Assembly (NCBI RefSeq): GCF_041021895.1
Contig: NZ_CP157428.1
Coordinates: forward strand, 1,054,001-1,118,000
Length of the DNA: 64,000 nt
Reading direction: 5' to 3'
DNA from: Acinetobacter sp. XH1741
Lineage (GTDB): Bacteria > Pseudomonadota > Gammaproteobacteria > Pseudomonadales > Moraxellaceae
Positions 34,342 to 51,812 of this stretch are shown here, piece after piece. The notes beneath the pieces were generated by a model, which saw nothing but the letters and a program-made list of their open reading frames with translations, did not search any database and was not told the DNA's origin. The position numbers and the translations under genes were made by a program. The number at the start of each line of letters is the position of its first letter. Within the stretch, counting starts at the first letter, position 1.

Positions 34342-34369
34342 TTGTAAATTTCATAACGAATGCTATAAT
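34342..34369 (+). promoter_or_regulatory. Near-consensus promoter of the aryl-polyene-type cluster
   Basis: TTGTAA (34342-34347) and TGC TATAAT (34361-34369) are spaced by 16 bases. The -10 hexamer is perfect and extended. Transcription would start near 34376, about 57 bases before the first cluster gene. No obvious operator is seen, suggesting a fairly strong basal promoter. Confidence 0.6.
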
Positions 34370-34432: not shown

Positions 34433-35047
34433 ATGGTAACATTACATCTTGCCCAGTTAACGCTTACACATGCCCAACCTTCCTATGCGGCACTTGAGTG
34501 TATTCCCTCTATGCAAAGAAGGCGTCTGTCATCTTTAGCTAAATTAGCACTCAATAGTGCAATTAGCGCATTAGATGGGCAACGTGTGGATTATATTGTT
34601 TGGGTATCACGTTATGGTGATGAGGCTAAAACATTAGGAATATTGCAAGATGTTCTGCAAGGTCAAACACCATCTCCTACGCAGTTCTCTACCTCAGTTC
34701 ATAATGCGATATCTGGTTTATATTCTATTTTATGTCAGGATGATACCCCGTCTACTAGTTTAAGTTGTTCATGGACCGAAGGTCTAATAGAAGCGTATGC
34801 TGCATTAAAAGCTTTACCGGCTATTCAACAGGTTTTAGTTGTTGCTTACGATGAGCCGCTACCTAAAATTTATAGTGAGTCTATTGATTTTCCTGCCTAT
34901 GCAATGGCTGCTTTAGTAAGTTTAGATCAGCCTAATTTACAGTTTACTGAATGGTCACCTACAGATGAATTAGATGGTTTGGCATTTTCTCGGTTTTGGC
35001 AAAGTGCTGATCTTTCTATGTCTGAATATGGGTGGAAGAAATGCTAA
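34433..35047 (+). CDS. Ketosynthase-like chain-length factor of the APE-type PKS
   Basis: Protein of 204 residues resembling the beta-ketoacyl synthase chain-length-factor family (Ketoacyl-synt_2), through segments such as TSVHNAISGLYSI and SLSCSWTEGLIEAYAAL. It lacks the full Cys-His-His triad, so it should be a non-catalytic partner of one of the ketosynthases downstream and limit polyene length. In characterised aryl polyene clusters this role is given to ApeC, as I recall. It is first in the operon, and its stop overlaps the next start. Confidence 0.78.
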   Translation: MVTLHLAQLTLTHAQPSYAALECIPSMQRRRLSSLAKLALNSAISALDGQRVDYIVWVSRYGDEAKTLGILQDVLQGQTPSPTQFSTSVHNAISGLYSILCQDDTPSTSLSCSWTEGLIEAYAALKALPAIQQVLVVAYDEPLPKIYSESIDFPAYAMAALVSLDQPNLQFTEWSPTDELDGLAFSRFWQSADLSMSEYGWKKC

Positions 35048-35835
35048 ATCTTAAAAATCTAAAGCAAAAAAGTAATTATTGTTGGCGTGTAGCTGCTACA
35101 GGTTTTAGTTTTGCAAGTTTTGGTATAGGTGGGATGGCAATTGCGGCAGTCATTGCACCTGCATTGAAAGTGACCACATCAGATCCAGAAAAACGCCAAC
35201 AATATGCACAAAGTATAATTAAGCATAGTTTTAAAGGCTTTACTGAAATGATGGTTAAGCTTGGGATTATGACCTATTCAGTAGAAGGCTTGGAAAAATT
35301 AGAAAATAGTCGCCAAGAACTTGTGATTGCCAACCATCCGACTTTAATTGATGTTGTAGTACTAATTGGTATGATGCAGCAAGCTAATTGTGTGGTGAAA
35401 CAATCTCTTTGGACGAATCCTTTTACTAAAGGACCAGTACAAAGTGCAGGTTATATTTTAAATGCTGGTTCTAAGCAGTTTGTCGAGGATTGTGTTTCTC
35501 GGCTAAAAGAGGATAATGCCGCTTCTCTTTTGATCTTTCCGGAAGGTACTCGGACTGAAAAAGGGGTGACTCTAAATGAGTTTCAGCGAGGTGCAGCAAA
35601 TATTGCCATTCGTGCAAATGTACCAATTCGCCCAGTAGTGATTACATGTGCTCCATCTACATTAACCAAAAATGAAAAATGGTATCACGTACCATCTCGA
35701 CCATTTCATATAGAAGTGAAGGTACTAGATGCAGTGTATGTAAAAGATCTATTAGAAGATTTAACGGTAGGACCTAAACAAGTTCGTGAGTTAAGTCGCA
35801 GTTTTTACAAAATTTTTGATGAAGAGTTATCTTAA
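35041..35835 (+). CDS. PlsC-like 1-acylglycerol-3-phosphate O-acyltransferase family
   Basis: LPLAT-family acyltransferase of 264 residues with the HX4D motif (NHPTLID, His99-Asp104) and FPEGTR at 166-171. There is one hydrophobic N-terminal segment. In the APE context it probably transfers an acyl or polyene chain to a glycerol or lipid acceptor, anchoring the pigment in membrane. Start ATG 35041 is chosen because it follows GGAAGA; a GTG at 35032 is possible. It overlaps the chain-length-factor gene by 7 bases. Confidence 0.82.
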   Translation: MLNLKNLKQKSNYCWRVAATGFSFASFGIGGMAIAAVIAPALKVTTSDPEKRQQYAQSIIKHSFKGFTEMMVKLGIMTYSVEGLEKLENSRQELVIANHPTLIDVVVLIGMMQQANCVVKQSLWTNPFTKGPVQSAGYILNAGSKQFVEDCVSRLKEDNAASLLIFPEGTRTEKGVTLNEFQRGAANIAIRANVPIRPVVITCAPSTLTKNEKWYHVPSRPFHIEVKVLDAVYVKDLLEDLTVGPKQVRELSRSFYKIFDEELS

Positions 35836-35836
35836 A

Positions 35837-36097
35837 ATGAGCAATCTTGCTGATGAACTAAAGCAAATGATTATTGATGTTTTAGCACTAGAAGATATTA
35901 CTATTGCCGATATTGATACAGAAGCTCCATTATTTGGAGAAGGTTTAGGATTAGACTCGATTGATGCCCTTGAGTTAGGGCTTGCTTTGAAAAAACGTTA
36001 CAACATCCATTTAAGTGCAGAATCGGATGAGACCAAACAGCACTTTAAATCAGTTCAAAGTTTGGTTGCGTTGGTCGAAGCGCAGCAGCAAGCATAA
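35837..36097 (+). CDS. Acyl carrier protein 1 of the cluster
   Basis: Acidic, helical carrier protein of 86 residues. The phosphopantetheine attachment is Ser41 in GLGLDSIDALEL. It should carry the growing aryl polyene or the starter. Start ATG 35837 lies one base after the upstream stop; an in-frame start at 35816 would overlap the acyltransferase gene. Confidence 0.92.
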   Translation: MSNLADELKQMIIDVLALEDITIADIDTEAPLFGEGLGLDSIDALELGLALKKRYNIHLSAESDETKQHFKSVQSLVALVEAQQQA

Positions 36098-36108
36098 GGA
36101 GTGTGATG

Positions 36109-36357
36109 ATGTTATCTCAAGAACAAGTATTGGCAAAACTCCGTGAATGGATGGAAGACTTATTTGAAATCGAACCTGAGTCTGTACAGTTAGATTCAAA
36201 CTTATATTCAGATCTAGACGTAGACAGTATCGATGCAGTCGATTTAGTGGTTAAGATTAAGGAGTTGACGGGTAAGCAAGTAAAACCTGAAGACTTTAAA
36301 AATGTAAGAACTGTATTAGATGTTGTGACTGTTATTCAGAATATGACTGCTGAATGA
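36109..36357 (+). CDS. Acyl carrier protein 2 of the cluster
   Basis: Second carrier protein, about 82 residues, with attachment Ser40 in DLDVDSIDAVDL. AAGGAG at 36096-36101 favours ATG 36109 (7-base spacing) over GTG 36103 or ATG 36106. Two distinct carriers in tandem are typical of aryl polyene clusters (ApeE/ApeF). They differ clearly in sequence, so they are probably specialised, for instance starter versus chain elongation. Confidence 0.92.
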   Translation: MLSQEQVLAKLREWMEDLFEIEPESVQLDSNLYSDLDVDSIDAVDLVVKIKELTGKQVKPEDFKNVRTVLDVVTVIQNMTAE

Positions 36358-36908
36358 AAATCTTGATTAAAGGGATAATTACAGCACTTTTTGTGTTGTA
36401 TCCCTTTATTGTTGGCTGGAGTTTATCGCACGGACAATTTGTCTGGGTAAGTGTATTACTTATTGGGCTAGGTGTTTTACGTTTATTGAGTAAAGGTAAT
36501 CACCTTTTATGGCCTTTAACCAGCCTTGCTATTATTTGTGGTGGCTTAAGTTTACTACTACATGATCATGCATGGTTAAAGCTTTATCCAGTTGGGATGA
36601 GTTTAGGTGCTTTAGGTATTTTTGCATTCACCTTAATTAAACCTCCTTCTATGATTGAGCGTTTTGCTCGCTTGGTTGAACCTGATTTACCACCATCAGG
36701 TGTTCATTGGACCAGGCAGGTTACAAAAGTCTGGTGCGTTTTCTTTTTATGTAATGCATTAATTGCATTAATTACGGTTTTTTTTACTTCGACTCAAATT
36801 TGGGTCATTTATAATGGTTTTATTTCTTATGTGCTGATGGGCATGTTATTCCTAGGCGAATTTATTTTGCGCAAAAGACATCAGCGTTTACATTCTTCAA
36901 ATCACTAA
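36354..36908 (+). CDS. Integral membrane protein of the APE-type cluster (COG4648-like)
   Basis: A 184-residue hydrophobic protein with about five or six membrane segments and few polar loops (SKGNHLLWPLTSL, LIKPPSMIERFARLVEPDLPPSG). The segment around RFARLVEPDLPPSGVHWTRQVTKVWC resembles a conserved membrane protein found beside APE acyl carrier proteins. Its role is unknown; assembly of the enzymes at the membrane is possible. It overlaps ACP2 by 4 bases (ATGA). Confidence 0.75.
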   Translation: MKILIKGIITALFVLYPFIVGWSLSHGQFVWVSVLLIGLGVLRLLSKGNHLLWPLTSLAIICGGLSLLLHDHAWLKLYPVGMSLGALGIFAFTLIKPPSMIERFARLVEPDLPPSGVHWTRQVTKVWCVFFLCNALIALITVFFTSTQIWVIYNGFISYVLMGMLFLGEFILRKRHQRLHSSNH

Positions 36909-36917
36909 TTCAAAATT

Positions 36918-38576
36918 ATGCAGTGTCATTTTCAGAAATTCATCGATTCGGTTCAGCCACTTTGCTTAGACAATGCTCTGAACTCAATCAGCTTTCATCA
37001 TTTTTGGCAGGATGTAGCTTTACAAGCTGCTGCAATTGCTCAAATAGAAAATTTAACATGGGCTTTATGGGAAACTGATAGCTACGAATTTCTGGTTTTA
37101 TTGTTTGCGGCATTATTAGCTAAAAAACAAGTGCTGTTACCACCAAATCGAGTGCGTGAATTAGAACAAGATTTTGCAGCACAGCATATTTATTTTTTAA
37201 AGCGCCAAAATGCTGAGTCAATTGCTCCCTTATCTTTAACGTTGGATGATGCCTTTTTAGAGCAGGCACAACTCTATTTTTATACATCAGGTTCAACAGG
37301 GCAGCCAAAAAGAATCCCAAGAACCTTAAAACAATTACTTAATGAGGTACAAGGCTTAAGTCAAAGCTTTGCTTTTGAAAATGATGCTATAGCTATTGCA
37401 ACGGTGAGCCATCAACATATTTATGGATTACTGTTTAAGTTACTTTTACCACTTGCAACTGGACGTTGTTTTTATATACCGCAAGTTGCTTATCCTGAAG
37501 ATGTTGTACAGGTTCAAAAGCAATTAAAAACATTGGAATTAAGCAATTATTTGATTTCAAGTCCAGCTTTATTAAAACGTTGGACAACCGATGTAGTTTT
37601 ACAACAATGTCAAATGGTCTTTAGCTCCGGTGGTAAACTGGAAAGTGGTGTCCGGCCTTTAGTAAATTGCTTAATCATTGAAGTTTTAGGAAGTTCGGAA
37701 ACGGGTGGCATTGCTCATCGTAGTAAAGATGATGATGTGTGGACACCTTTTGCGAATGTGGCTATTCGTATTGAAGATCATCAACTGATGGTCAAAAGTA
37801 ATCATGCTTATGAAGATAATTGGATTACCACAGGTGACCGTGCCGAATGGGCAGATAATATATGCAAAAGCTTTCAGCTTTTAGGGCGTACAGATCGAAT
37901 TATTAAGCTTGAAGAAAAGCGTTTGAGTCTAGATGCGATTGAACAAAGTATTCAAGCCTTAGACGAAGTTAAACAGTGTCATGTACTGGTATTTGAGCAT
38001 GAGCATCGACAAATGCTGGGTTGTATTGTGGTTTTGACAGAGCAGGCTCGTGAGCAGTTGCAAAAACAGAGTAAGGCAGTTTTTGTTGGTCATTTAAAAT
38101 ATCAGTTGAAAGATCATTTAGAAACTTTAGCAATTCCACGTCAATGGCGTTTTTTAAGTCAGCTACCGCAAAATACACAGTCTAAACTCGATAAAAACTA
38201 TTTAAAAATGCTATTCAAGCCGATGTTGCAACCTGTTGTGCTATCCCAGACTCAAAGTGCAGATGACTATATTTTTAGCCTTGAGTTTCCGCCCGAGTTA
38301 GTATGTTTTAAAGGCCACTTTCCAAACCAACCTATTTATCCAGGGGTGGGACAAATAGGGTTTTTACAACATTTTGCTAAATCAATTTGGTCCGATTTAA
38401 ATTGGTGCCAAGGGTATGAGCAGTTAAAATTCCAAAATCTCATTTGTCCTTATGCTGTCGTGCAACTCAAATTTTCTCGAAAAGAGCATAAGGTAAGTTT
38501 TGAATTACGTGATTCAGAACAGATTTTGGCTTCAGGACGACTATTATTTGCTTTGCAAACGGAAGTAGAGGGTTAG
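36918..38576 (+). CDS. AMP-forming acyl/aryl ligase fused to a FabZ/FabA-like hotdog dehydratase
   Basis: Two-domain protein of 552 residues. Residues 1 to about 435 form an ANL adenylating enzyme: P-loop YTSGSTGQPK (122-131), GSSETGG (258-264), TGD (305-307), and the catalytic Lys of QSKLDKN (about 423). It would load an aryl acid such as a coumarate- or benzoate-type starter onto a carrier protein. Residues about 450-552 form a hotdog domain with FKGHFPNQPIYPG (464-476, His467), the 3-hydroxyacyl-ACP dehydratase signature. In other APE clusters these are separate proteins (ApeH and ApeI, from memory). There is no internal stop or start suggesting two genes. Confidence 0.85.
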   Translation: MQCHFQKFIDSVQPLCLDNALNSISFHHFWQDVALQAAAIAQIENLTWALWETDSYEFLVLLFAALLAKKQVLLPPNRVRELEQDFAAQHIYFLKRQNAESIAPLSLTLDDAFLEQAQLYFYTSGSTGQPKRIPRTLKQLLNEVQGLSQSFAFENDAIAIATVSHQHIYGLLFKLLLPLATGRCFYIPQVAYPEDVVQVQKQLKTLELSNYLISSPALLKRWTTDVVLQQCQMVFSSGGKLESGVRPLVNCLIIEVLGSSETGGIAHRSKDDDVWTPFANVAIRIEDHQLMVKSNHAYEDNWITTGDRAEWADNICKSFQLLGRTDRIIKLEEKRLSLDAIEQSIQALDEVKQCHVLVFEHEHRQMLGCIVVLTEQAREQLQKQSKAVFVGHLKYQLKDHLETLAIPRQWRFLSQLPQNTQSKLDKNYLKMLFKPMLQPVVLSQTQSADDYIFSLEFPPELVCFKGHFPNQPIYPGVGQIGFLQHFAKSIWSDLNWCQGYEQLKFQNLICPYAVVQLKFSRKEHKVSFELRDSEQILASGRLLFALQTEVEG

Positions 38577-38578
38577 AA

Positions 38579-39319
38579 ATGCAGACTAACTATGGCTTTG
38601 TTGTCCCAGTTTATAATCATCCATATTTCTTAGCAGACTTGATTGCTAAGTTGGATGGTTTTCATCTGCCGATTGTGTTGGTAAATGATGGAAGTGATGA
38701 TACGTGTAGCCAAATTTTAAGAGCTTTGGCAGAGCAGTATCCACAAATACATTTAATCGAGCATGAGGTAAACAAAGGGAAAGGCCAAGCCGTAATGACT
38801 GGATTACGCACAGCACATGAGCTTGGTTTAAGTCATGCACTACAACTTGATGCAGATGGTCAGCACTGCTGGGATGACATTCCAAAATTTCTGGAACAGT
38901 CTGGGCAGCATCCAGATGCGATGGTTATTGGTCAGCCATATTTCGATGCTTCTATTCCTAAAAAACGTTTATATGGGCGTTACATTACTCACTTTTGGGT
39001 GTGGTTAAATAGTTTGTCGTTTGAAATTAAGGACAGTATGTGTGGGTTCCGAGTGTACCCGCTCGAGAGCACGATAAAGGTATTGGATAGCGCTAAATTC
39101 CAACCGCGTATGGGATTTGATAGTGAAATTTTAGTGCGGTTAAAATGGGAAAATATACCTTTTATTAATGTCCCGACAGCAGTGATTTACCCAGAGCAGG
39201 GTATTTCCCATTTTCATGCTTGGCGAGATAACTTAGGAATAAGTAAGGCACACGCAAGTCTATTTATGGGAATGCTCATCCGTTTGCCGAAACTATTAAA
39301 ACATAAGCTGCAAGGTTAA
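38579..39319 (+). CDS. Family 2 glycosyltransferase
   Basis: GT-A glycosyltransferase of 246 residues: MQTNYGFVVPVYNHP start, VNDGSDD (35-41), and the metal-binding LDADGQH (D91xD93), then SMCGFRVYP as in dolichyl-phosphate-mannose-synthase-like proteins. It has no obvious membrane anchor. It presumably attaches a sugar to the polyene lipid. It lies 2 bases after the ligase gene and 2 before the acyltransferase gene. In some APE clusters the two activities are on one polypeptide. Confidence 0.85.
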   Translation: MQTNYGFVVPVYNHPYFLADLIAKLDGFHLPIVLVNDGSDDTCSQILRALAEQYPQIHLIEHEVNKGKGQAVMTGLRTAHELGLSHALQLDADGQHCWDDIPKFLEQSGQHPDAMVIGQPYFDASIPKKRLYGRYITHFWVWLNSLSFEIKDSMCGFRVYPLESTIKVLDSAKFQPRMGFDSEILVRLKWENIPFINVPTAVIYPEQGISHFHAWRDNLGISKAHASLFMGMLIRLPKLLKHKLQG

Positions 39320-39321
39320 CC

Positions 39322-40248
39322 ATGACTCAGTCAGCTTCTCCAAAATGGAATGATATTAAAGAGCGTGGTGGCATGTTGCCATTAATGTTAATGCTTTGGT
39401 TTTATCGTTTTGGTGGACGCTGGTTATGTAAACTGGTGTTGTACTTCGTCATTATGTGGTACTGGTTATTTGCAGTCACAGCAAGACAAGCTTCACTACT
39501 CTATTTAAGAAAGTTACATCGTTTTGCGGGAGCTAACTCTCCATTTACACATGAGCCGACTTTAGGAAATAGCTATGTTCATTTTATGCAGTTCGGTGAA
39601 TGTATTTTAGATAAGATTGAGGGGTGGCTTGGCAATATTCCAGAACAAAATCTAGAAATTTTTGGACATGAATATTTCCATCAGCATTACCAAAAGGGCG
39701 CTCTCATTGTTGTCTCGCATTTTGGTAATATTGAGTTGCTCCGTGCAATAAAATCAGACCATCCACAAAAAATTAATGTGTTGGTTTATCAAAAACATGC
39801 AACAAAATTTAATGATTTTCTAAAAAAAATAAATGATAAAGCAGATGTTTGTCTTTTATCGGTCGATGAACTCGGTATTGAAACGGCTATGTTGCTACAA
39901 GACAAAATGCAACAAGGCGAGTGGGTCATTGTCGCGGCAGACCGAGTGCCTGTGCAGTCAGACCGAGTACAACAGCTAGAGTTTTTAGGGGAGAATGCTG
40001 CATTTCCACAAGGTGCATGGATTTTGGCAAATTTGCTTAAAGTGCCAGTGATTGCCGTATTTTGTTATCGCATGCAGCAACAATTTCAAGTGCATATCCA
40101 TCTGATTTCAGAGCAGGTGAATTTACCGCGTGCGCAACGTATTGAAAGTATGCAGAGTGTGACTCGAACCTATGTAAATGTATTAGAGCAGCATTGTGTG
40201 CGGGCTCCTTACCAGTGGTTTAATTTTTATAATTTTTGGACGAAATAA
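39322..40248 (+). CDS. LpxL/HtrB-type lipid acyltransferase
   Basis: Late-acyltransferase-like protein of 308 residues. It has an N-terminal membrane segment (about 35-53) and the HX4E motif in VSHFGNIELL (His133-Glu138), followed by ADRVPVQ and FPQGAWILA. Homologues acylate lipid A; here the operon context suggests acylation of the glycosylated aryl polyene or of its glycerol/lipid anchor. Confidence 0.83.
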   Translation: MTQSASPKWNDIKERGGMLPLMLMLWFYRFGGRWLCKLVLYFVIMWYWLFAVTARQASLLYLRKLHRFAGANSPFTHEPTLGNSYVHFMQFGECILDKIEGWLGNIPEQNLEIFGHEYFHQHYQKGALIVVSHFGNIELLRAIKSDHPQKINVLVYQKHATKFNDFLKKINDKADVCLLSVDELGIETAMLLQDKMQQGEWVIVAADRVPVQSDRVQQLEFLGENAAFPQGAWILANLLKVPVIAVFCYRMQQQFQVHIHLISEQVNLPRAQRIESMQSVTRTYVNVLEQHCVRAPYQWFNFYNFWTK

Positions 40249-40249
40249 C

Positions 40250-41785
40250 ATGCATGTGTTAACCGTAGGGGAACAGCCACTTCGCATTGAAGATGTTGTT
40301 GCTGTAGCGAGAGGTGAATGCCAGGTTACTTTGCCTACTTCTTCTGAGTGGCGTGAGCTCATTCAAAAAGGAGCTGATTTTCTTGATCAGTTACTTGCAG
40401 AGGAAGGGGTAATTTACGGAGTAACGACAGGTTATGGTGACTCATGTTTAGTTGAAGTTCCATTACATCAGGTCAATGAATTACCGCTACATCTTTCTCG
40501 TTTTCATGGCTGTGGTTTAGGTGAAAATCTTGATGTGATCACCGCACGTGCAGTTGTTGCTACTCGATTATGTTCATTGGCACGTGGTTATTCGGGTGTA
40601 TCAATCGCATTACTTGAACGCTTAGTTTGGTTGCTAAATGAAAATGTGATTCCAGTTATTCCCTCTGAAGGTTCGGTAGGAGCAAGCGGGGACTTAACAC
40701 CTTTGTCTTACATTGCAGGAACTTTAGTTGGCGAGCGTGATGTTTATGTCGATGGACGAATTGTTCCGGTTGCTCAGGTATATGCCGAAAAAGGGTTACA
40801 GCCTTTAACGCTCAGACCGAAAGAGGGTTTGGCCCTTATGAATGGTACTGCGGTGATGACGGCAATTGCATGTTTAAACTATAAAAAAGCTGAGCAAATT
40901 GCTCTTGCAAGTACTTTGATTACAGCGCTAAACGTGTTGGCGTTGGAAGGTAATCCAAGTCATTTCGATGAAGTACTGTTTGCACAAAAGCCACATCCGG
41001 GGCAGCAGCAAATTGCAAAGCAATTACGTGATTGGCTTAACAGTGAAGTACAAACAGCACATCAAAGCCCTCGTTTGCAAGATCGTTACTCATTGCGCTG
41101 TGCACCGCATATTATTGGTGTTTTTGAAGACTCAAAAGTATGGTTACGTCAGTTTATTGAAAATGAGCTGAATTCGAGTAACGACAATCCATTAATTGAT
41201 CCAGTCGGAATGCGTGTATTGCATGGTGGTCACTTCTACGGTGGACACATTGCACAGGCGATGGATAGCTTAAAAATTATGATTGCCAATATTGCCGACT
41301 TGATGGATAGACAAATTGCACAGTTGGTCGATCATAAAATGAATCATGGTTTACCGCGTAATTTAACAGGTGCAACGGCTGAACGTTTACCACTGAATCA
41401 TGGTTTTAAAGCTGTACAAATCGGAGTATCAGCGTGGACCGCCGAGGCTCTAAAAAATACTTTAGCTGCTTCAATTTTTTCACGTTCAACCGAATGTCAT
41501 AATCAAGACAAAGTCAGTATGGGAACCATTGCTGCACGTGATGCAAGTCGTGTGATTACCTTGACGCAGCAAGTGATTGCAGCGCTGTGCTGCGCAAGTG
41601 TACAGGCGATTCATTTGAAAGGTTTAACAGCACAGTTAAGCCCAGCATTACAAGCCTTTATGCAATGGACCTTACAAAGCTTTGCATTTGTTGAAGAAGA
41701 TCGACCATTACAAACCGAATTACAACAGATTGTTGATCGTTTAGACCAACTTGAGTTGTTTAATCAAACAGAATTTATGGGATAA
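40250..41785 (+). CDS. Aromatic amino acid (HAL/PAL/TAL family) ammonia-lyase
   Basis: MIO-dependent ammonia-lyase of 511 residues. Ala145-Ser146-Gly147 (GSVGASGDL) would cyclise to the MIO cofactor, and Tyr56 in IYGVTTGYG is the catalytic base region. The pocket pair that separates family members, usually Ser-His in HAL, Phe-Leu in PAL and His-Leu in some TAL, reads Phe85-His86 here (HLSRFHGCG). No hut genes are near; it lies inside the polyketide operon. I infer that it makes cinnamate or 4-coumarate (or a related arylacrylate) as starter for the ligase. Histidine as substrate is less likely. Start ATG 40250 lies 1 base after the previous stop. Confidence 0.85.
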   Translation: MHVLTVGEQPLRIEDVVAVARGECQVTLPTSSEWRELIQKGADFLDQLLAEEGVIYGVTTGYGDSCLVEVPLHQVNELPLHLSRFHGCGLGENLDVITARAVVATRLCSLARGYSGVSIALLERLVWLLNENVIPVIPSEGSVGASGDLTPLSYIAGTLVGERDVYVDGRIVPVAQVYAEKGLQPLTLRPKEGLALMNGTAVMTAIACLNYKKAEQIALASTLITALNVLALEGNPSHFDEVLFAQKPHPGQQQIAKQLRDWLNSEVQTAHQSPRLQDRYSLRCAPHIIGVFEDSKVWLRQFIENELNSSNDNPLIDPVGMRVLHGGHFYGGHIAQAMDSLKIMIANIADLMDRQIAQLVDHKMNHGLPRNLTGATAERLPLNHGFKAVQIGVSAWTAEALKNTLAASIFSRSTECHNQDKVSMGTIAARDASRVITLTQQVIAALCCASVQAIHLKGLTAQLSPALQAFMQWTLQSFAFVEEDRPLQTELQQIVDRLDQLELFNQTEFMG

Positions 41786-41794
41786 GGTGAGCGA

Positions 41795-42223
41795 ATGCAT
41801 GCGGATGTAATCATTGAGATTCCATTTCATGATGTTGATACCATGAATGTGGTTTGGCATGGACACTATTTAAAGTATTTTGAGATTGCACGTTGTAAAT
41901 TGCTTGATCAATTTCATTACAACTATATGCAAATGAAAGAATCTGGTTATGCATGGCCTGTGATAGAAAGTCATGTTCGCTATGCATATGGCATTGAGTT
42001 TGAACAAAAGATTCGGGTTCGGGCTATTTTAAAAGAATGGGAAAACCGTTTAAAAATAGATTATCTGATTTTTGATGCTGAGTCTGGAAAGCGTTTAACC
42101 AAAGGTTATACCACACAGGTTGCTGTAAATATTGCAAACCGTGAAATGTGCCTTCAGTCACCTCCGGTTTTATTTGAACGTTTAAATGCATGGTCTGAGT
42201 TCCAACCAACGAGGGGAGCATGA
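41795..42223 (+). CDS. 4HBT-type thioesterase
   Basis: Hotdog thioesterase of 142 residues with the YbgC-like active-site segment HDVDTMNVVWHGHYLKYFE (12-30). It could release or proofread chains stuck on the carrier proteins, or hydrolyse the finished polyene thioester. APE clusters commonly encode one (ApeK in my recollection). AAGGTGAG precedes the ATG. Confidence 0.85.
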   Translation: MHADVIIEIPFHDVDTMNVVWHGHYLKYFEIARCKLLDQFHYNYMQMKESGYAWPVIESHVRYAYGIEFEQKIRVRAILKEWENRLKIDYLIFDAESGKRLTKGYTTQVAVNIANREMCLQSPPVLFERLNAWSEFQPTRGA

Positions 42224-42852
42224 TGTCTAAATTTATTAAAACTTTAGGGATAGGCCTCACGGTTTGGATGGGCAGCTTGAGTACTGTTTTTGCAGCGTCG
42301 ACAGAAGTGACACAGATTTTTCAGCAGTTGGCACAAACACCGATTGTCCGTGCTGATTTCGAGCAGCAAAAGAAATTACCATCTTTAAATAAAACTTTTG
42401 TATCGAATGGTTCTTTATTATTTGCAAAATCTTATGGTGTCGCATGGCAAATCAAACGTCCGGTACAGGCAGATTTAATTGTTACTCCAACGAAACTGGT
42501 ACAAAAAACCCAGCGAACATTTAGCCAGATTCAAATTAATCAATCACCTTATAGTTCTGTTGCAACACTCTTTTTACAGCTAATGTCAGGTAATGAACAA
42601 GCCTTGGTGAAGAACTTTAATGTGGTTAGCGCAAACTACAGTCCAGCGGGTTGGAATATTAGTTTAACGCCAAAAAGTAGCTTATTTAAAAAATTGTTTG
42701 TGCGTGTGGATGCTCAAGGGCAGCAATATGTAAATCAAATTTTGATTACTGAAAAAGCCAATAATCAGACCACAATTCGCTTTAGTCACCAGACTTCTCA
42801 ACCGACGACTTTAATGGCTACCGAGCATGCGCTTTTCCAATTGGCAAAATAA
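42223..42852 (+). CDS. LolA-like outer membrane lipoprotein carrier
   Basis: Periplasmic protein of 209 residues with a signal peptide (MSKFIKTLGIGLTVWMGSLST, cleavage near VFAA) and a LolA-type domain (FQQLAQTPIVRADFEQQKKLPSL, then GSLLFAKSYGVAWQIKRP). It probably shuttles the hydrophobic product between membranes. Two ATG codons overlap the thioesterase stop (42220 and 42223). GGAG at 42215-42218 is better spaced for 42223. It overlaps the exporter gene by 26 bases. Confidence 0.83.
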   Translation: MSKFIKTLGIGLTVWMGSLSTVFAASTEVTQIFQQLAQTPIVRADFEQQKKLPSLNKTFVSNGSLLFAKSYGVAWQIKRPVQADLIVTPTKLVQKTQRTFSQIQINQSPYSSVATLFLQLMSGNEQALVKNFNVVSANYSPAGWNISLTPKSSLFKKLFVRVDAQGQQYVNQILITEKANNQTTIRFSHQTSQPTTLMATEHALFQLAK

Positions 42853-45142: not shown

Positions 45143-45172
45143 TTTGAATAAATTAAAAAGGAAAGTCGTGCT

Positions 45173-46468
45173 ATGAGCACTTTAGAAAAAATTGATGTAG
45201 TGATTATTGGGGCTGGGCCATCAGGAAGTTCTGCTGCGGCACTTCTTCGAAAAAAAGGCTATAAAGTCGCGGTTTTGGAAAAGCAGTATTTCCCACGGTT
45301 TTCAATTGGTGAGTCATTACTACCGCAATCTATGGTGTTTTTAGAAGAGGCTGGCTTACTAGAAACAGTTCGCGATCACGTTGAGCAGTATGCATTTCAA
45401 TTTAAAAATGGGGCTGCCTTTTTGCGTGGTAAACAGCGCAGTTTTTATAACTTTACTGAAAAATTTACAGACGGGCCAGGGACGACTTGGCAGGTTCGCC
45501 GTGCTGATTTTGACAATTTGCTGGCCAAACAAGCTCACGCTTATGGGGCAGACCTGCGTTTTGGACATGAAGTTTTAGATGTAGATGTAGCACCAGAACA
45601 GCCTGTACTTACGGTATTAGATGAAAATAAGCAAAGCTATCAAATTCAAACCAAGTTCTTACTTGATGCGAGTGGGTTTGGTCGAATTTTGCCAAAATTG
45701 TTAGATTTAGAGAGTCCGTCAAACTTTCCGGTACGTCGTGCGCTATTTGCTCATATTGAAGATGGTATTGCTGATGATTTAGAGTTTGACCGTAATAAGA
45801 TTTTAATTACTGTACATGAAAAAGACCACCGTGCATGGTATTGGTTAATTCCATTTGCTGATGGTCGCTCCTCTTTTGGTGTAGTTGCAGAACAAGATTT
45901 CTTTGACAAATACACAGTTGATAATGCTGCGGATAATGAGCCAGAAGCAATGTTCAAACGCATTTTAGCTGACGAACCAAGCTTGTCGCATGTACTACAT
46001 CAGGCTAAATTTGATACACCTGTACGTACTTTGGTGGGCTATTCTGCAAATGTTAAGCATTTGGCAGACCGCAACTATGCACTTTTAGGAAATGCGGGTG
46101 AGTTTCTTGACCCAGTATTTTCATCAGGTGTGACTATCGCGTTAAAATCTTCCAGCTTGGCTGTACCTTTGGTTGAGCGTGTTTTGCAAGGTGAACAGGT
46201 AGACTGGTTGCAAGAGTATGAAAAACCATTACGCCGTGGTATTCAGGTGTTTCGTGCCTATGTTGAGTCATGGTACGAAGGTGAATTTCAAGAAGTGGTG
46301 TTCTCGCAAAATCAGAATGATGGCATTCGCCGTATGATTTCTTCATTACTGGCAGGTTATGCATGGGATGAAAAAAACCCAATTCATAAGAATGCCAAAC
46401 GTAGACTTAGCACCCTAGCAGAATACTGTCGTGAAGGCTTAACGCAAGAGCAGGTATTAGAGGTATAA
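45173..46468 (+). CDS. FAD-dependent oxidoreductase, flavin-dependent-halogenase-like
   Basis: Flavoprotein of 431 residues with GAGPSG (13-18) for FAD binding, the halogenase-diagnostic WYWLIP (222-227, WxWxIP), and FLDPVFSSG (311-319, FxxPxxSxG). Lys78 in FQFKNGAAF lies where halogenases carry the Lys that binds hypohalite. These motifs suggest chlorination or bromination of the aryl head, as is known for xanthomonadin pigments. Non-halogenating relatives (hydroxylases, geranylgeranyl-reductase-like) share part of this pattern, so the reaction remains open. Confidence 0.8.
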   Translation: MSTLEKIDVVIIGAGPSGSSAAALLRKKGYKVAVLEKQYFPRFSIGESLLPQSMVFLEEAGLLETVRDHVEQYAFQFKNGAAFLRGKQRSFYNFTEKFTDGPGTTWQVRRADFDNLLAKQAHAYGADLRFGHEVLDVDVAPEQPVLTVLDENKQSYQIQTKFLLDASGFGRILPKLLDLESPSNFPVRRALFAHIEDGIADDLEFDRNKILITVHEKDHRAWYWLIPFADGRSSFGVVAEQDFFDKYTVDNAADNEPEAMFKRILADEPSLSHVLHQAKFDTPVRTLVGYSANVKHLADRNYALLGNAGEFLDPVFSSGVTIALKSSSLAVPLVERVLQGEQVDWLQEYEKPLRRGIQVFRAYVESWYEGEFQEVVFSQNQNDGIRRMISSLLAGYAWDEKNPIHKNAKRRLSTLAEYCREGLTQEQVLEV

Positions 46469-46470
46469 GC

Positions 46471-47016
46471 ATGCAGCGCAAATGGATGATGTTATTACTT
46501 GGTAGTTGCCTATGTTTTACAGGCTGCCAAGTGATGCCACATGCTAAAGGTTTACAAAGCCCCTTATGGCAGACTCAAGCCTATCAAAGGCAAGACCAGG
46601 TTGAAGTTCAGTGGAAACAACAAAGTTTTAGTTTTTTGCTTTATCAACAACAGCAAGGAACTGTACTGGATATGGTCGCTTTGAGCCTGACTGGACAACA
46701 GCTGTTTAAACTACAGTTTGATGGGCAACGAGTTCATGTAGAGCAGCGTATTGACCAAATGTGCTTATTACCTTTTGAATTTGTGGTACGTGATCTTTTA
46801 TTTGCAACTTACCCAAAATTTTCGAGCTTAGGACAACAAGCGGTAGAAATGAAACAACAGGCTGATAATCAAGTGGTTTATATCGATAATCAACCTGTGT
46901 TACAGATCAAAAAAGGTCAAGGAAGCGTCGAGTTACGTAATCAGCAAGTTCCTTATAGCATGACGCTAAGTTCGATTGAAAATACCTTGCAGCCTCAAAA
47001 AAGCAGTACACCATGA
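46471..47016 (+). CDS. DUF3261-type lipoprotein of the cluster
   Basis: Predicted outer-membrane lipoprotein of 181 residues with the signal MQRKWMMLLLGSCLCFTGC (lipobox FTGC) and a Gln-rich beta domain. DUF3261-like proteins are common in APE and flexirubin-type clusters and may help place the pigment in the outer membrane. The function is not established. It overlaps the next gene by 4 bases. Confidence 0.75.
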   Translation: MQRKWMMLLLGSCLCFTGCQVMPHAKGLQSPLWQTQAYQRQDQVEVQWKQQSFSFLLYQQQQGTVLDMVALSLTGQQLFKLQFDGQRVHVEQRIDQMCLLPFEFVVRDLLFATYPKFSSLGQQAVEMKQQADNQVVYIDNQPVLQIKKGQGSVELRNQQVPYSMTLSSIENTLQPQKSSTP

Positions 47017-48215
47017 GCGATTCATCTATAAACAATTCTGCTCAAATGGCAGTCGGTATAAAGTTCAGTGTCGGTTTATCTGCATTAGGTTGTGAACCTG
47101 AGCAACTCAAACAAGCATTAGGTCAGTCTCAGCAAACTTTAAGTTTGCGCAATGATTTAATCAGCGATTGTTCTGTATGGGTGGGACAATATAGATATCC
47201 GTTATGTTCAAAAGTACCCGATGCCTTACAGTCTGTCGATTCTCGTAATTTAAGATTTGCTCTGACTGCTTTAGAAAAAATTGAAACTGGACTAAAAAGT
47301 TATACAGAGAAATTTTCACCAGAACGTTTAGCCATAGTCGTTGGAACCTCTACTTCTGGTATTTCTGATAGCGAATTGTTGCTTAAGCAATATTTTGAAG
47401 GGCAAACTCAGCAATTGATTTCTCACCGACGTCAGGAAATGAGTTGTTTAGCAAAGGCCTTACAACAGTACTTAAACTGGGAAGGGCCCGCATATACCAT
47501 CTCCACAGCCTGTTCCTCAAGTGCTAAAGCAATGGCTGCTGGGCAGCGTTTGTTACACGCAGATTTAGCTGATGCAGTACTTGTTGGTGGTGTCGATACT
47601 TTGTGCCAACTCACATTAAATGGATTTAATAGCCTAGAGAGTTTATCTGGTGATATTTGTCAGCCATGTGGGGTTGGGCGTGATGGTATTAATATTGGTG
47701 AAGCCGCAGCTTTCTTTTTGCTCACTAAAGAGCAAACCCCAGTCATGTTAATGGGTGCTGGAGAATCAATGGATGCATGGCATATTTCTGCTCCGCATCC
47801 GGAAGGTAACGGTGCTGCTATTGCTATGACGAGGGCATTGGAGATGGCAAATATATCTGCACACGATATTGGTTATTTAAACCTTCATGGAACTGCAACT
47901 CCCCAAAACGATGCCATGGAAATAAAAGCTGTACGACAAGTCTTTGGTAATTATCAAGTCGCTTTAAGTAGTACCAAGCATAAAACTGGACATTGTCTTG
48001 GTGCAGCTGGTGCTATAGAAGCGTTTATTTGTGAGCAGGTTTTAAAAGATCAAAGCTGGTTGCCATTGCATCGACATGTTGAGATTGATCAGGATTTGGC
48101 TGACCAAAACTATGTGCAAAATACTGAACTAAAACAACCTATACGTTATGTGATGAGTAATTCTTTCGCTTTTGGGGGAAGTAATATTAGTCTTGTTTTT
48201 GGAGTGAAGCCCTGA
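47013..48215 (+). CDS. Beta-ketoacyl-ACP synthase (first cluster ketosynthase)
   Basis: Thiolase-fold ketosynthase of 400 residues with a complete triad: Cys167 (STACSSS), His292 (NLHGTATPQND) and His327 (KHKTGHCLGAAG). The N-terminal 50 residues diverge from FabF. It is the likely catalytic partner of the chain-length factor, or the enzyme for a distinct round of extension. It overlaps the DUF3261 gene and shares one base with the dehydratase gene. Confidence 0.9.
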   Translation: MSDSSINNSAQMAVGIKFSVGLSALGCEPEQLKQALGQSQQTLSLRNDLISDCSVWVGQYRYPLCSKVPDALQSVDSRNLRFALTALEKIETGLKSYTEKFSPERLAIVVGTSTSGISDSELLLKQYFEGQTQQLISHRRQEMSCLAKALQQYLNWEGPAYTISTACSSSAKAMAAGQRLLHADLADAVLVGGVDTLCQLTLNGFNSLESLSGDICQPCGVGRDGINIGEAAAFFLLTKEQTPVMLMGAGESMDAWHISAPHPEGNGAAIAMTRALEMANISAHDIGYLNLHGTATPQNDAMEIKAVRQVFGNYQVALSSTKHKTGHCLGAAGAIEAFICEQVLKDQSWLPLHRHVEIDQDLADQNYVQNTELKQPIRYVMSNSFAFGGSNISLVFGVKP

Positions 48216-48640
48216 TGAAATTGGAGGCAATTCAATATATTCCTCATGAGCAGCCTATGGTATTTATTGACCATTTAACTGAGGTTGCAGAAGGGCGAGC
48301 ACAAGCTGAGCTAACCATTACACCTGAGCTTATGTTCTGTGACGCAGAAGGTTTACCAACGTGGGCAAGCATTGAAATTATGGCGCAAACCATTAGTGCC
48401 TATTCTGGCTGGCAAGGTCAACAGTTAAAACAAGCGCCAAAAGTCGGATTTTTACTAGGAACACGTAAATTACATTTACCTATTCCTTATTTCGCCTTGG
48501 GTTCTCGATTGATCATTGAAATAGAACAACAATATTTTCATGAAGGACTTGGGCAATTTTCCTGTGAAATTCAATATGCTGAACACCGTATTCAAGCAAC
48601 GTTAAGCGTATTTGAGCCAACAGAAACACCATTTGAATAA
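48215..48640 (+). CDS. 3-hydroxyacyl-ACP dehydratase-like hotdog protein
   Basis: Hotdog protein of 141 residues (IPHEQPMVFIDHLTEVAEG; ASIEIMAQTISAYSGWQ), resembling the ApeP-type dehydratase family of aryl polyene clusters. It may pair with the hotdog domain fused to the ligase (ApeI-like) to make an active dehydratase that forms each double bond. It overlaps the upstream ketosynthase by one base. Confidence 0.84.
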   Translation: MKLEAIQYIPHEQPMVFIDHLTEVAEGRAQAELTITPELMFCDAEGLPTWASIEIMAQTISAYSGWQGQQLKQAPKVGFLLGTRKLHLPIPYFALGSRLIIEIEQQYFHEGLGQFSCEIQYAEHRIQATLSVFEPTETPFE

Positions 48641-48663
48641 CCACAAAGAATTAGGAATACATT

Positions 48664-49389
48664 GTGACAAGACGAATTTTAGTAACGGGTTCAAGTCGAG
48701 GGATCGGAAAGGCAATTGCATTACAATTGGCAAAGGCTGGTTTTGATGTAACAGTACACGCGCGTTCGCGTCAAGCTGAAGCTGAGCAAGTTGTACAAGA
48801 GATTCAAGCTTTAGGACAAAACAGCCACTATTTAATGTTTGATGTAAATGAGCGCAGTACTGTTCAGCAAATTTTAGAACAAGATGTAGAGCAGCATGGT
48901 GCTTTTTATGGTGTGGTTCTCAATGCTGGACTTACCCATGATGGTGCTTTTCCTGCACTCACCGATCAAGATTGGGATGAAGTTATCTCGACCTCATTAG
49001 ATGGCTTCTATAATGTTTTAAAACCACTCATTATGCCAATGATTCATTTACGCAAGGGCGGGCGTATTGTTACTTTATCTTCTGTTTCTGGAATTATGGG
49101 TAACCGTGGTCAAGTTAACTATAGCGCTGCAAAGGCAGGTTTAATTGGTGCGACCAAAGCCTTGGCACTCGAGTTGGCAAAGCGAAAAATTACCGTGAAT
49201 TGTGTTGCGCCAGGGCTGATTGAAACAGAAATGGTCACCGATGAAGTTAAAGAACATGCACTTAAAATGATTCCATTACAACGCATGGGACAGGTTGATG
49301 AAGTTGCGAGCGTAGTGAAATTTTTATGTTCAGATGAAGCCTCTTATGTCACCCGACAGGTGATCTCTGTAAATGGAGGACTCATTTAA
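48664..49389 (+). CDS. 3-oxoacyl-ACP reductase (FabG-like)
   Basis: Short-chain dehydrogenase of 241 residues with the NADP(H) motif TGSSRGIG (8-15), NAG at 87-89, and the catalytic Ser140, Tyr153 and Lys157 (YSAAK). It reduces the beta-keto group after each condensation. The start is GTG at 48664, with AGGA 7 bases upstream. Its final base is shared with the next start (TAATG). Confidence 0.92.
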   Translation: MTRRILVTGSSRGIGKAIALQLAKAGFDVTVHARSRQAEAEQVVQEIQALGQNSHYLMFDVNERSTVQQILEQDVEQHGAFYGVVLNAGLTHDGAFPALTDQDWDEVISTSLDGFYNVLKPLIMPMIHLRKGGRIVTLSSVSGIMGNRGQVNYSAAKAGLIGATKALALELAKRKITVNCVAPGLIETEMVTDEVKEHALKMIPLQRMGQVDEVASVVKFLCSDEASYVTRQVISVNGGLI

Positions 49390-50615
49390 TGAAGCGCGTT
49401 GTTGTGACAGGAATGGCAGGGATTACTTCTTTAGGTGAAACCTCCGATGAGATTTTTGCTCAATTTAATGCAGCGAAAAGTGGCATCCGTTATATGCCTG
49501 AATGGGAACAGTATGTTGACCTTCGAACTAAGCTCGGTGGTCCTGTAGAGACATTTCATGTTCCTAAGCACTTTAACCGTAAAGTGACCCGTGGTATGGG
49601 GCGTGTTGCCCTCATGTCAGTGGTATGTGCTGAAACAGCTTTGCAAAATGCAGGTTTACTTGGACATGAAATTTTGTCCAGTGGTGAAACGGGTGTTGCA
49701 TTTGGTTCTTCGGCAGGTAGCGTAGAGGCCGTGGGTGAGTTTGCAAGTATGTTACTTCATCAGAGCATGAGTAAGATCAATGCGACCACTTATATACGTA
49801 TGATGGCGCATACAAGCGCTGTGAATATGACTGTGTATTTTGGTCTAAAAGGCTTAACGTTACCTACGTCTAGCGCTTGTACTTCTGGTTCTATGGCCAT
49901 TGGGCAAGCTTATGAAGCAATTAAGTATGGTAAACAACAGGTCATGATTGCTGGTGGTGCAGAAGAACTCAGTGCTGCGGGTGCGGCTGTTTTTGATGTT
50001 CTATTTGCAACAAGTAATATGAATGATCAACCAGAAAAAACACCGCGTCCATTTGATGCAAAAAGAGATGGATTGGTCATTGGGGAAGGTGCAGGCTGTT
50101 TAATTCTGGAAGAGTATGAACATGCCAAAGCACGCGGTGCACATATTTATGCTGAACTTATTGGATATGGAAGCAATACTGATGGACAGCATGTAACAAG
50201 ACCTGACGCTGACATGATGGGGCGCTGTATGGAGTTGGCGCTTAAAGATGCATCTTTGCAGGCTAGTGATATTGGTTATGTGAATGCACATGGCACATCA
50301 ACCGATCAGGGTGATGTCGCAGAAAGTCAGGCGACAGCAAAAATTTTAGGGCGTAAACCAATTAGTTCATTAAAAAGTTATTTTGGACATACGTTGGGGG
50401 CGTGCGGTGCCATTGAAGCTTGGCTCAGTATTGAAATGATGAACCGTAACTGCTTCATTCCGACATTGAATCTAGATGAAATTGATCCGCTTTGTGGAGA
50501 TCTGGATTATATCGTCCAGCAACCCAAAGCCCTCAATGCTGACATTATTATGAGCAACAATTTTGCTTTTGGTGGGATTAATACCTCACTTATTTTTAAA
50601 CGTGTTAAACAATAA
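49389..50615 (+). CDS. Beta-ketoacyl-ACP synthase (second cluster ketosynthase, FabF-like)
   Basis: Ketosynthase of 408 residues, closer to FabF than the first one. Its triad is Cys164 (SSACTSGS), His301 (NAHGTSTDQGD) and His334 (SYFGHTLGACG). In aryl polyene systems one ketosynthase (ApeR-type) works apart from the KS:CLF pair, possibly in chain initiation; the assignment here is inference. Confidence 0.92.
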   Translation: MKRVVVTGMAGITSLGETSDEIFAQFNAAKSGIRYMPEWEQYVDLRTKLGGPVETFHVPKHFNRKVTRGMGRVALMSVVCAETALQNAGLLGHEILSSGETGVAFGSSAGSVEAVGEFASMLLHQSMSKINATTYIRMMAHTSAVNMTVYFGLKGLTLPTSSACTSGSMAIGQAYEAIKYGKQQVMIAGGAEELSAAGAAVFDVLFATSNMNDQPEKTPRPFDAKRDGLVIGEGAGCLILEEYEHAKARGAHIYAELIGYGSNTDGQHVTRPDADMMGRCMELALKDASLQASDIGYVNAHGTSTDQGDVAESQATAKILGRKPISSLKSYFGHTLGACGAIEAWLSIEMMNRNCFIPTLNLDEIDPLCGDLDYIVQQPKALNADIIMSNNFAFGGINTSLIFKRVKQ

Positions 50616-50626
50616 GGAACACAACA

Positions 50627-51061
50627 ATGTTAAATAAAAAAATTTTATTGGTAGCAATGCTTAGTGCTGGCTTTACTGCTACCGTTCAGGCTGCTGATGA
50701 AGTACATCCTTTAAACTTTAAAGACGCTGTAGACCGTGCTGTAGCCGATGGAACATTAGATGGCTCTGTAAAATTTTATTTAAGTGGTACAAAATCGGGT
50801 GGTAAAGTTATCCAAAAAGATGTGGTAACCAATAAAAAGACCAATGGTTTTGGTAAAACAGCAGAAGCTTCGTGTGATTGGGTTTTACGCTCAGCACTTA
50901 TTCAATTGCAAAACAACGCTAAAGCACAAGGTGCAAATGCAGTGACCAATATTGTGAGTTATTTTAAGTCAAATGAAACACGTAGTACGACCACGTATAA
51001 CTGTTATAAAGGCGCAATGATGGCAGGCGTGACGCTTAAAGGCGACATCGTTAAATTTTAA
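50627..51061 (+). CDS. Small periplasmic protein of the APE-type cluster (RcsF/YbjQ-like fold suspected)
   Basis: Exported protein of 144 residues with signal peptide MLNKKILLVAMLSAGFTATV (cleavage after VQA). The segment LRSALIQLQNNAKAQGANAVTNIVSYF recalls the helix-strand of RcsF/YbjQ-like proteins. Two cysteines (ASCDW, YNCYKG) could form a disulphide. Homologues in APE clusters are sometimes labelled excinuclease subunits, which the sequence does not support. The function is unknown. Confidence 0.7.
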   Translation: MLNKKILLVAMLSAGFTATVQAADEVHPLNFKDAVDRAVADGTLDGSVKFYLSGTKSGGKVIQKDVVTNKKTNGFGKTAEASCDWVLRSALIQLQNNAKAQGANAVTNIVSYFKSNETRSTTTYNCYKGAMMAGVTLKGDIVKF

Positions 51062-51087
51062 TTCATTTGGTAAATAGGGTAGAGATA

Positions 51088-51747
51088 ATGTCTGAACATA
51101 CTATAGAAGTCTATACACAGACATTATCTCAGCTTCTTTTAAAGTCGAAACCAGACTTTCCTGACTTTCGCACATTTAATGATTATAAAAAGCAGCAAAT
51201 ACAACACATTAAAAATAAGCTATTAGCTCAAAAGCTAAATGTAACTCCAACAGATTTGGTATTTGCGAAACATGAGTATGGTAAACCCTATTTGTTAAAT
51301 CATACTTTGCATTTTAATCATTCACATAGCCAACAATATTATGCTTTAGCGCTGAGCGAGAGAGTTAAAGATATTGGTATCGATGTTGAAGAACTTGATC
51401 GTAAAGTACGTTTAGATAATCTGGCACAGCATGCCTTTCATCCTGATGAATATGCAATATGGCAAAGTCTAGATCAAGATAGAGAATATTGGTTTAAAGT
51501 CTGGACAACTAAAGAAGCGGTTTTAAAAGCATCAGGACTTGGTATACGTTTAGATTTAAATACTTTAAATACTCAAGCACATCCTACAAATCATGGGGGA
51601 TTATGTTCGCATGAAATGATTGGGACATTTGCTTATCAAAACTTTGTTTTAGGCAACATGATCTTAACTGTTGCATGGCGCTCGGAGCAGTCCTGCCGTG
51701 GTTTTCAGTTTCCTTCTATTCAGCTTCATTCGTTGGGTAGTGAATGA
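51088..51747 (+). CDS. 4'-phosphopantetheinyl transferase
   Basis: Sfp/AcpT-like transferase of 219 residues that would attach phosphopantetheine to the two cluster carrier proteins. Its metal-binding motifs are GIDVEELDR (Asp99, Glu101) and WFKVWTTKEAVLKASG (Glu143). Start ATG 51088 follows TAGGG; an upstream in-frame start at 51067 lacks a ribosome-binding site. It is the last gene of the cluster, before a bidirectional terminator. Confidence 0.9.
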   Translation: MSEHTIEVYTQTLSQLLLKSKPDFPDFRTFNDYKKQQIQHIKNKLLAQKLNVTPTDLVFAKHEYGKPYLLNHTLHFNHSHSQQYYALALSERVKDIGIDVEELDRKVRLDNLAQHAFHPDEYAIWQSLDQDREYWFKVWTTKEAVLKASGLGIRLDLNTLNTQAHPTNHGGLCSHEMIGTFAYQNFVLGNMILTVAWRSEQSCRGFQFPSIQLHSLGSE

Positions 51748-51762
51748 GCCAAATAGCACACA

Positions 51763-51794
51763 TAAAAAAACCGCGAATTACGCGGTTTTTTTAT
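51763..51794. terminator. Bidirectional terminator, right border of the APE-type cluster
   Basis: AAAAAAACCGCG and CGCGGTTTTTTT flank an AATTA loop. It serves the cluster on the plus strand and secB on the minus strand. Confidence 0.92.
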
Positions 51795-51812
51795 GTAGAG
51801 CAAGCTATGAAA

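Follow-up and report, generated by a model that had tools for sequence, protein, structure and literature searches.

An aryl polyene operon typical of Acinetobacter

We analyzed a 64,000-nt stretch of the genome of Acinetobacter sp. XH1741 (contig NZ_CP157428.1, positions 1,054,001 to 1,118,000), hereafter the window, to which all coordinates below refer. The window carries an aryl polyene (APE) gene cluster that is, very probably, the APE operon already described in Acinetobacter and ordinary for this genus. Two of its genes, encoding an aromatic amino-acid ammonia-lyase and a flavin adenine dinucleotide (FAD) enzyme, are recurrent optional modules and not curiosities of this genome, since they were found across Acinetobacter clusters and elsewhere in the class. 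An initial annotation based on the sequence alone had recognized an APE cluster, and rightly so: such clusters have been published for A. baumannii (PMC8358021, PMC8041823), and the ApeC, ApeO, ApeR and ApeQ proteins of the window match solved proteins.

The list of open reading frames (ORFs) shows 20 ORFs on the + strand filling positions 34433-51747, and checking their coordinates confirmed each of the 20 co-oriented genes as annotated. These genes had been described as mostly overlapping, which was slightly strong: the junctions span -26 to +30 bp and overlap is real at 8 of the 19. The operon probably comprises 19 genes, from apeC to a 144-aa gene (gene 19), followed by a phosphopantetheinyl transferase (PPTase) gene that is probably resident at this site. 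Searches against Pfam and NCBIfam bore out nearly all the families that had been named: a chain-length factor (CLF), two ketosynthases (KS), two acyl carrier proteins (ACPs), a ketoreductase (KR), ApeI-like and ApeP-like dehydratase domains, a 4HBT thioesterase, an AMP-binding ligase, two acyltransferases, a GT2 glycosyltransferase, a LolA-like protein, an aromatic amino-acid lyase, a Trp_halogenase/FAD protein, a DUF3261 protein and a PPTase.

The polyketide genes comprise the KS-CLF pair and the second KS of APE clusters. The chain-length factor ApeC (34433..35047; 204 aa; PF13723, 8e-44) matches chain A of 7F28 at full length (residues 1-204; 362 bits), and its ketosynthase partner ApeO (47013..48215) matches chain B of the same structure (residues 7-400; 742 bits). 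The FabB-like ketosynthase ApeR (49389..50615) matches 7F27 at full length (residues 1-408; 856 bits). The catalytic cysteines, Cys167 in ApeO and Cys164 in ApeR, agree with the numbering in PMC8358021. Two free ACPs, a ligase, a KR and the ApeI/ApeP dehydratase pair are likewise present. The first ACP (ACP1) is ApeE (35816..36097; PF00550; 62% identical to E. coli ApeE; Ser48 in LDSIDA) and the second (ACP2) is ApeF (36103..36357; PF00550, NF003757; 43% to E. coli ApeF; Ser42). The acyl-ACP ligase ApeH is fused to the hotdog dehydratase domain ApeI (36918..38576; PF00501, PF22818), and this fusion yielded no solved-structure match at E 1e-10. ApeP, the dehydratase partner of ApeI, is encoded at 48215..48640 (PF22817, 2e-21), and the ketoreductase ApeQ (48664..49389) matches 7CAW at full length (513 bits), with two differing positions in the printed alignment.

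The acyltransferases, the thioesterase and the LolA/MMPL/DUF3261 export set of APE clusters were also found. ApeD (35032..35835; PF01553; 40% identity to E. coli ApeD) is a lysophospholipid-type acyltransferase, and ApeG (36354..36908; PF04279; 42% to E. coli ApeG over 110 columns) is an IspA-like membrane protein. ApeJ is split into an N-terminal half, a GT2 glycosyltransferase (38579..39319; PF00535; 49% to residues 1-242 of E. coli ApeJ), and a C-terminal half, a lipid-A-type acyltransferase (39322..40248; PF03279; 33% to residues 246-549). ApeK (41795..42223; PF13279; 60% to E. coli ApeK) is a 4HBT thioesterase. ApeL (42220..42852; PF03548; NF053544 below its cut-off; 24% to E. coli ApeL) is a LolA-like periplasmic carrier, whereas ApeN (46471..47016; PF11659; 30% over 67 columns to E. 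coli ApeN) is a DUF3261 LolB-like protein and a probable lipoprotein, with an FTGC lipobox-like stretch seen by eye at its N-terminus. For the MMPL/HpnN-like exporter ApeM (42827..45142; 771 aa), no Pfam match was found at E<=0.001, but NCBIfam gave HpnN/MMPL-type matches below their cut-offs (TIGR03480 among them), its identity to E. coli ApeM is 27% over 785 columns, and a crude hydropathy count gave 11 hydrophobic segments.

We compared the 20 proteins of the window to the 18 Ape proteins of an E. coli locus (L069) using BLASTP. Along the cluster, the window proteins C, D, E, F, G, HI, J1, J2, K, L, M, N, O, P, Q and R find their counterparts in E. coli C to R without any change of order, with H and I fused and J split; the weakest of these pairs is ApeN (E 3e-4). 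The E. coli CFT073 ape genes follow the same order (Table 1 of PMC8253772). The suggestion that the gene order differs from that of known clusters is therefore rejected for E. coli, where the one-to-one counterparts are collinear. Order and strand from apeD to gene 19 are identical in 42 of 43 Acinetobacter loci, and the remaining locus (L035) presents the same layout with the lyase alone missing. Because this order and these strands recur among Acinetobacter loci, a chance arrangement is excluded.

Distribution of the lyase and FAD genes

In a sample of 99 Acinetobacter genomes (FAD gene called at E below 1e-200, lyase at >800 bits), apeC was detected in 54 and the FAD gene in the same 54, as judged by reading the two tables side by side. 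The lyase was present in 52 of these 54 genomes and missing from two (G076 and G097). We further analyzed 229 genomes of the class with thresholds of E up to 1e-60 for the FAD gene and >500 bits for the lyase. The CLF domain PF13723 was found in 50 of them; the FAD gene and the lyase were each found in 10 genomes, all CLF-positive, and they occur together in 5 of the 50 (Fisher p 0.018, no correction for relatedness). Were genomes independent, which they are not, the probability of finding all 10 genomes with the FAD gene within the CLF-positive 50 would be ~1e-7. The FAD gene lies on the same contig as the CLF gene in 9/10 genomes, within ~12 kb, and the lyase shares a contig with the CLF gene in 7/10; in the remaining cases, fragmented assemblies place the two genes on different contigs.

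We then examined 64 loci chosen by the presence of the FAD gene (43 from Acinetobacter and 21 others). The lyase was found in 57 of them: 42/43 in Acinetobacter and 15/21 in the others (Colwellia, Cognaticolwellia, Pseudoalteromonas and Shewanella). Within this set, it was not found in the loci of Marinomonas, three Avibacterium, Rosenbergiella and a Neisseria metagenome-assembled genome (MAG). The initial description of non-canonical parts was thus misleading, with the lyase in 52/54 and the FAD gene in 54/54 of the Acinetobacter APE clusters and both recurring elsewhere in the class. Nor are the lyase and the halogenase-like gene extra genes in the sense of oddities, as had been implied, since flexirubin and xanthomonadin clusters have been reported to contain a lyase and halogenases (PMC3992019, PMC3691225, PMC3949708).

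We also considered whether the FAD enzyme and the methyltransferase ApeB exclude each other. This was not supported: each was found in 10 of the 50 CLF-positive genomes and they co-occur in one (Fisher p 0.66), where the two genes are on different contigs; the ApeB table omits four genomes with an ApeB match but no CLF. Two lyase-free Acinetobacter clusters carry additional genes. One presents an extra AMP-ligase gene (L073:3128-4780; PF00501, 6e-72) between the FAD gene and apeN, and the other a second pair of ApeI-like (below cut-off) and ApeP-like genes (L072:5103-5919) 5' of apeC. In Acinetobacter rathckeae EC24, two copies of the cluster (L033 and L034) are found on one contig in opposite orientation with identical match scores, and in genome G026 der and secB are doubled along with the cluster. 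The doubling of der and secB in G026 suggests that the doubled cluster is probably an assembly artefact. Among the matches listed, E. coli DNA covers only 48% of a 3.6-kb query, in 800 of 5426 genomes.

The ammonia-lyase

The lyase gene (40250..41785, +) encodes an aromatic amino-acid ammonia-lyase of the 4-methylideneimidazole-5-one (MIO) type (PF00221, 1e-158) that probably acts on tyrosine. Its start is more likely the ATG at 40250 than the GTG at 40196. The protein possesses the ASG triad and the NQD motif, which mark MIO ammonia-lyases and the tyrosine/phenylalanine ammonia-lyase (TAL/PAL) type, respectively. The triad and the motif NQDKVSMG are found in 58/58 sequences (the window and 57 loci), and the counterpart in the HutH of the host is NQEDHVSMA. 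The selectivity site reads RFHG (F-H in 58/58) vs LSHA (S-H) in HutH, and this F-H pattern is not assignable to a substrate. A stray histidine lyase was considered and rejected, as the host encodes its own HutH (G000:C1:450833-452179), which is 31% identical and presents other motifs.

Among solved chains, the lyase is closest to tyrosine aminomutases, followed by chains labelled histidine or putative histidine ammonia-lyase, AdmH and phenylalanine lyases. Two chains with such histidine labels, 2O6Y and 2O78, we take to be a tyrosine lyase. The NCBIfam models were ambivalent, with 402.6 bits for the tyrosine lyase BagA/FevW, 400.2 bits for histidine lyase and 339.2 bits for FlxA, all below cut-off. 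FlxA, the lyase of flexirubin synthesis, prefers tyrosine ~1000-fold over phenylalanine and is inactive on histidine, even though its motif 1 resembles that of histidine ammonia-lyases (PMC3992019); the selectivity motif can therefore mislead. The lyase would thus likely convert tyrosine to 4-coumarate.

The FAD enzyme

The FAD enzyme (45173..46468, +; PF04820) belongs to the superfamily of flavin-dependent halogenases. Its best match among solved structures is 3NIX (342 bits), labelled "Flavoprotein/dehydrogenase", with halogenases next (the best at ~129 bits). The sequence contains the halogenase motifs GxGxxG, WxWxIP and FxxPxxSxG and the halogenase lysine. The nucleotide motif GAGP, K78, WxWxIP (222-227) and FLDPVFSSG (311-319) are all found in 65/65 sequences (the window and 64 loci), with K78 aligned to the halogenase lysine. 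Its best NCBIfam match is the halogenase CmlS, below the cut-off of the model, and geranylgeranyl reductase and monooxygenase models also matched below their cut-offs. Its identity reaches 96% with the A. nosocomialis GNU001 protein and 92-93% with the A. pittii, A. calcoaceticus and A. lactucae proteins, which places the genome of the window near the A. calcoaceticus-baumannii group; the list of matches may omit records very near this genome. A lone homologue (46%) was observed near ribosomal-protein genes in the Neisseria MAG (L061:9977-11191), and none of the other 19 cluster proteins has a match in the 21 kb fetched around it.

Proposed pathway and alternative readings

For A. baumannii, it is published that ApeH loads an aromatic acid on ACP1, that ApeO-ApeC and ApeR condense malonyl units, that ApeQ reduces and that ApeI, fused to ApeH, dehydrates together with ApeP, and a conjugated polyene was formed in vitro with these enzymes from ACP1 loaded with benzoyl or 4-hydroxybenzoate (4HBA) (PMC8358021, PMC8041823). 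In the cluster of the window, the lyase would make the starter 4-coumarate from tyrosine, a supply route that we regard as fairly probable. ApeH would load 4-coumarate onto an ACP, and ApeO-ApeC/ApeR would extend it with ApeQ and ApeI/ApeP. ApeK may release the acid, ApeD and both halves of ApeJ may attach the polyene acid to lipid, and ApeL, ApeM and ApeN, perhaps with gene 19, may carry the product to the outer membrane, in line with the lipid attachment and export roles proposed for E. coli (PMC8253772). The FAD enzyme would most likely modify the aryl head group. The product should be a yellow membrane-bound aryl polyene pigment, and lipid anchoring and protection against oxidants may be expected by analogy with other APE clusters.

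The ubiquinone pathway could instead supply 4HBA as the starter, an origin proposed for E. coli, with the lyase then providing an optional second starter or serving another purpose. We consider this rather unlikely. The E. coli cluster does without a lyase, and A. baumannii ApeH (AbApeH) loaded 4HBA on ACP1 with formation of a polyene in vitro (PMC8041823, PMC8358021), so that the lyase may be dispensable, as its absence from 2/54 apeC-positive Acinetobacter genomes might also indicate. However, the lyase is retained in 52 of these 54 genomes, 42 of 43 loci have it within the operon, its low identity to the HutH of the host (31%) sets the two clearly apart, and flexirubin synthesis runs on a tyrosine lyase and 4-coumarate (PMC3992019). 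We therefore favor 4-coumarate as the starter. A flexirubin-type product, in which the aryl polyene is esterified to a dialkylresorcinol, is very improbable. The lyase, KR and LolA proteins do match the FlxA, FlxB and LolA2 models, all below cut-off, but in both gene content and gene order the cluster resembles E. coli ape, and none of the 20 genes was recognized by Pfam or NCBIfam as a dialkylresorcinol-forming enzyme (darA/darB), the rest of the genome not having been searched for these genes.

The chances are about even that the FAD enzyme, instead of being a halogenase, is a monooxygenase or dehydrogenase with the ring or the polyene as its substrate. Its score to 3NIX is far above those to halogenases, and the geranylgeranyl reductase and monooxygenase matches agree with such an activity. 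Against it stand K78 at the position of the halogenase lysine, the invariant WxWxIP and FxxPxxSxG motifs, CmlS as best NCBIfam match and the halogenase genes of xanthomonadin-type clusters (PMC3691225, PMC3949708). The Lysobacter cluster of this type contains no halogenase gene (PMC3691225). A halogenated head group is possible because the enzyme retains the halogenase lysine and motifs, and we put forward halogenation only tentatively.

The natural pigment might be a halogenated, 4-coumarate-primed aryl polyene, with the FAD enzyme halogenating the head group in place of the methylation put forward for E. coli; taken as a whole, we hold this to be unlikely. Several points speak against the starter and the head-group modification proposed above. 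The presence of halogenase motifs is no proof of halogenating activity, and to our knowledge no activity is known for this subfamily of FAD enzymes. In one gammaproteobacterial genome, the frame of a FAD homologue ~4 kb from the CLF gene contains three internal stops (G147:C1:293512-294747). The tyrosine and histidine lyase models are nearly tied (402.6 vs 400.2 bits, both below cut-off), two apeC-positive genomes have no lyase and AbApeH accepts 4HBA, as described above. We found no structure or chemistry of any Acinetobacter APE in the accessible part of the literature searched. If a halogenated, 4-coumarate-primed pigment is nevertheless made, the lyase brings one vinyl unit ready made, and the benzoyl/4-hydroxybenzoyl in vitro system yields a near-analogue of the natural product. 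The identity of the starter bears on whether the natural substrate was the one employed in the structural studies of A. baumannii ApeR, ApeQ and ApeO, which relied on benzoyl and 4-hydroxybenzoyl models. As the cluster itself is known and common in the genus, its interest rests on these two tailoring steps and on one small protein, gene 19.

Gene 19, the PPTase and the genomic setting

Gene 19 (50627..51061, +) encodes an apparently exported protein that may adopt a predicted YbjQ/RcsF-like fold. BLASTP against all E. coli Ape proteins, including ApeA, gave no match at E 0.1.

The PPTase gene (51067..51747, +; PF01648) had been counted as a cluster member. It is probably a neighboring resident chromosomal gene, separable from the operon that adjoins it, because two cluster-free relatives (G004 and G084; L070 and L071) retain it between der and secB. 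In these genomes, the der-secB gap holds the PPTase as its sole ape-type gene, 77% and 80% identical to that of the window, and DNA homology to the window stops 44-49 bp past der and restarts 70-82 bp inside the PPTase. These relatives may have lost the operon or may never have carried it. No PPTase match was found in the fetched stretches of 13/43 Acinetobacter loci and of all 21 other loci. Its retention in cluster-free genomes and the lack of a match in many of the fetched cluster loci led us to reject the PPTase as obligatory cargo of the cluster. The secB frame of G004 contains one TAA.

The operon is preceded by hisS, a TPR gene, a bamB-like gene and der, and followed by secB, a small gene, a rhodanese gene and rsgA. 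Inspection by eye placed apeC <=0.7 kb from der in 31/54 apeC-positive Acinetobacter genomes, at 3.1 kb in one (G014), and elsewhere or on another contig than der in 22/54. A consensus scan found a promoter-like site 5' of apeC (34342..34369, +; TTGTAA-16-TATAAT with TG before the second hexamer; 10/12 matches), but the sigma-70 scan of the region gave 33 sites, fewer than the shuffle mean of 50.4, and it was dropped as evidence. A consensus scan also gave a terminator-like hairpin with a 17-pair stem on the secB strand (51759..51797, -), between the convergent PPTase and secB genes. No tRNA gene was found in the 64-kb window.

Comparison with known clusters

The A. baumannii cluster, which is present in GC2 strains and absent from AYE and ATCC 17978, resembles that of the window in its ApeC, ApeO, ApeR and ApeQ proteins (full length or nearly so), its published ApeH-ApeI fusion, its two ACPs and its Lol-type and membrane transport genes (PMC8358021, PMC8041823). 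The accessible text of these articles revealed no difference between the two clusters, and the terms "lyase", "coumar" and "halogen" do not occur in their main texts. Within the literature searched, which largely excludes subscription journals, we found no paper that assigns a role to either the lyase or the FAD enzyme in the APE clusters of Acinetobacter, and the accessible portions of PMC9966250 and PMC10104596 contained no relevant passage.

The E. coli cluster (apeA-R) differs by its ApeA lipoprotein and ApeB methyltransferase, which have no partner in the window; conversely, the lyase, the FAD enzyme, gene 19 and the adjoining PPTase have no partner in the E. coli cluster. The flexirubin cluster of Chitinophaga pinensis shares a start by tyrosine lyase and ligase, polyene synthesis and LolA and exporter genes, its tyrosine lyase feeding 4-coumarate into synthesis (PMC3992019). 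Xanthomonadin-type clusters of Xanthomonas and Azoarcus, compared by description only, likewise combine an aryl polyene with a halogenase gene (PMC3691225, PMC3949708). In Azoarcus, however, a chorismatase of the XanB2 type makes the hydroxybenzoate starter, where the cluster of the window has a lyase instead.

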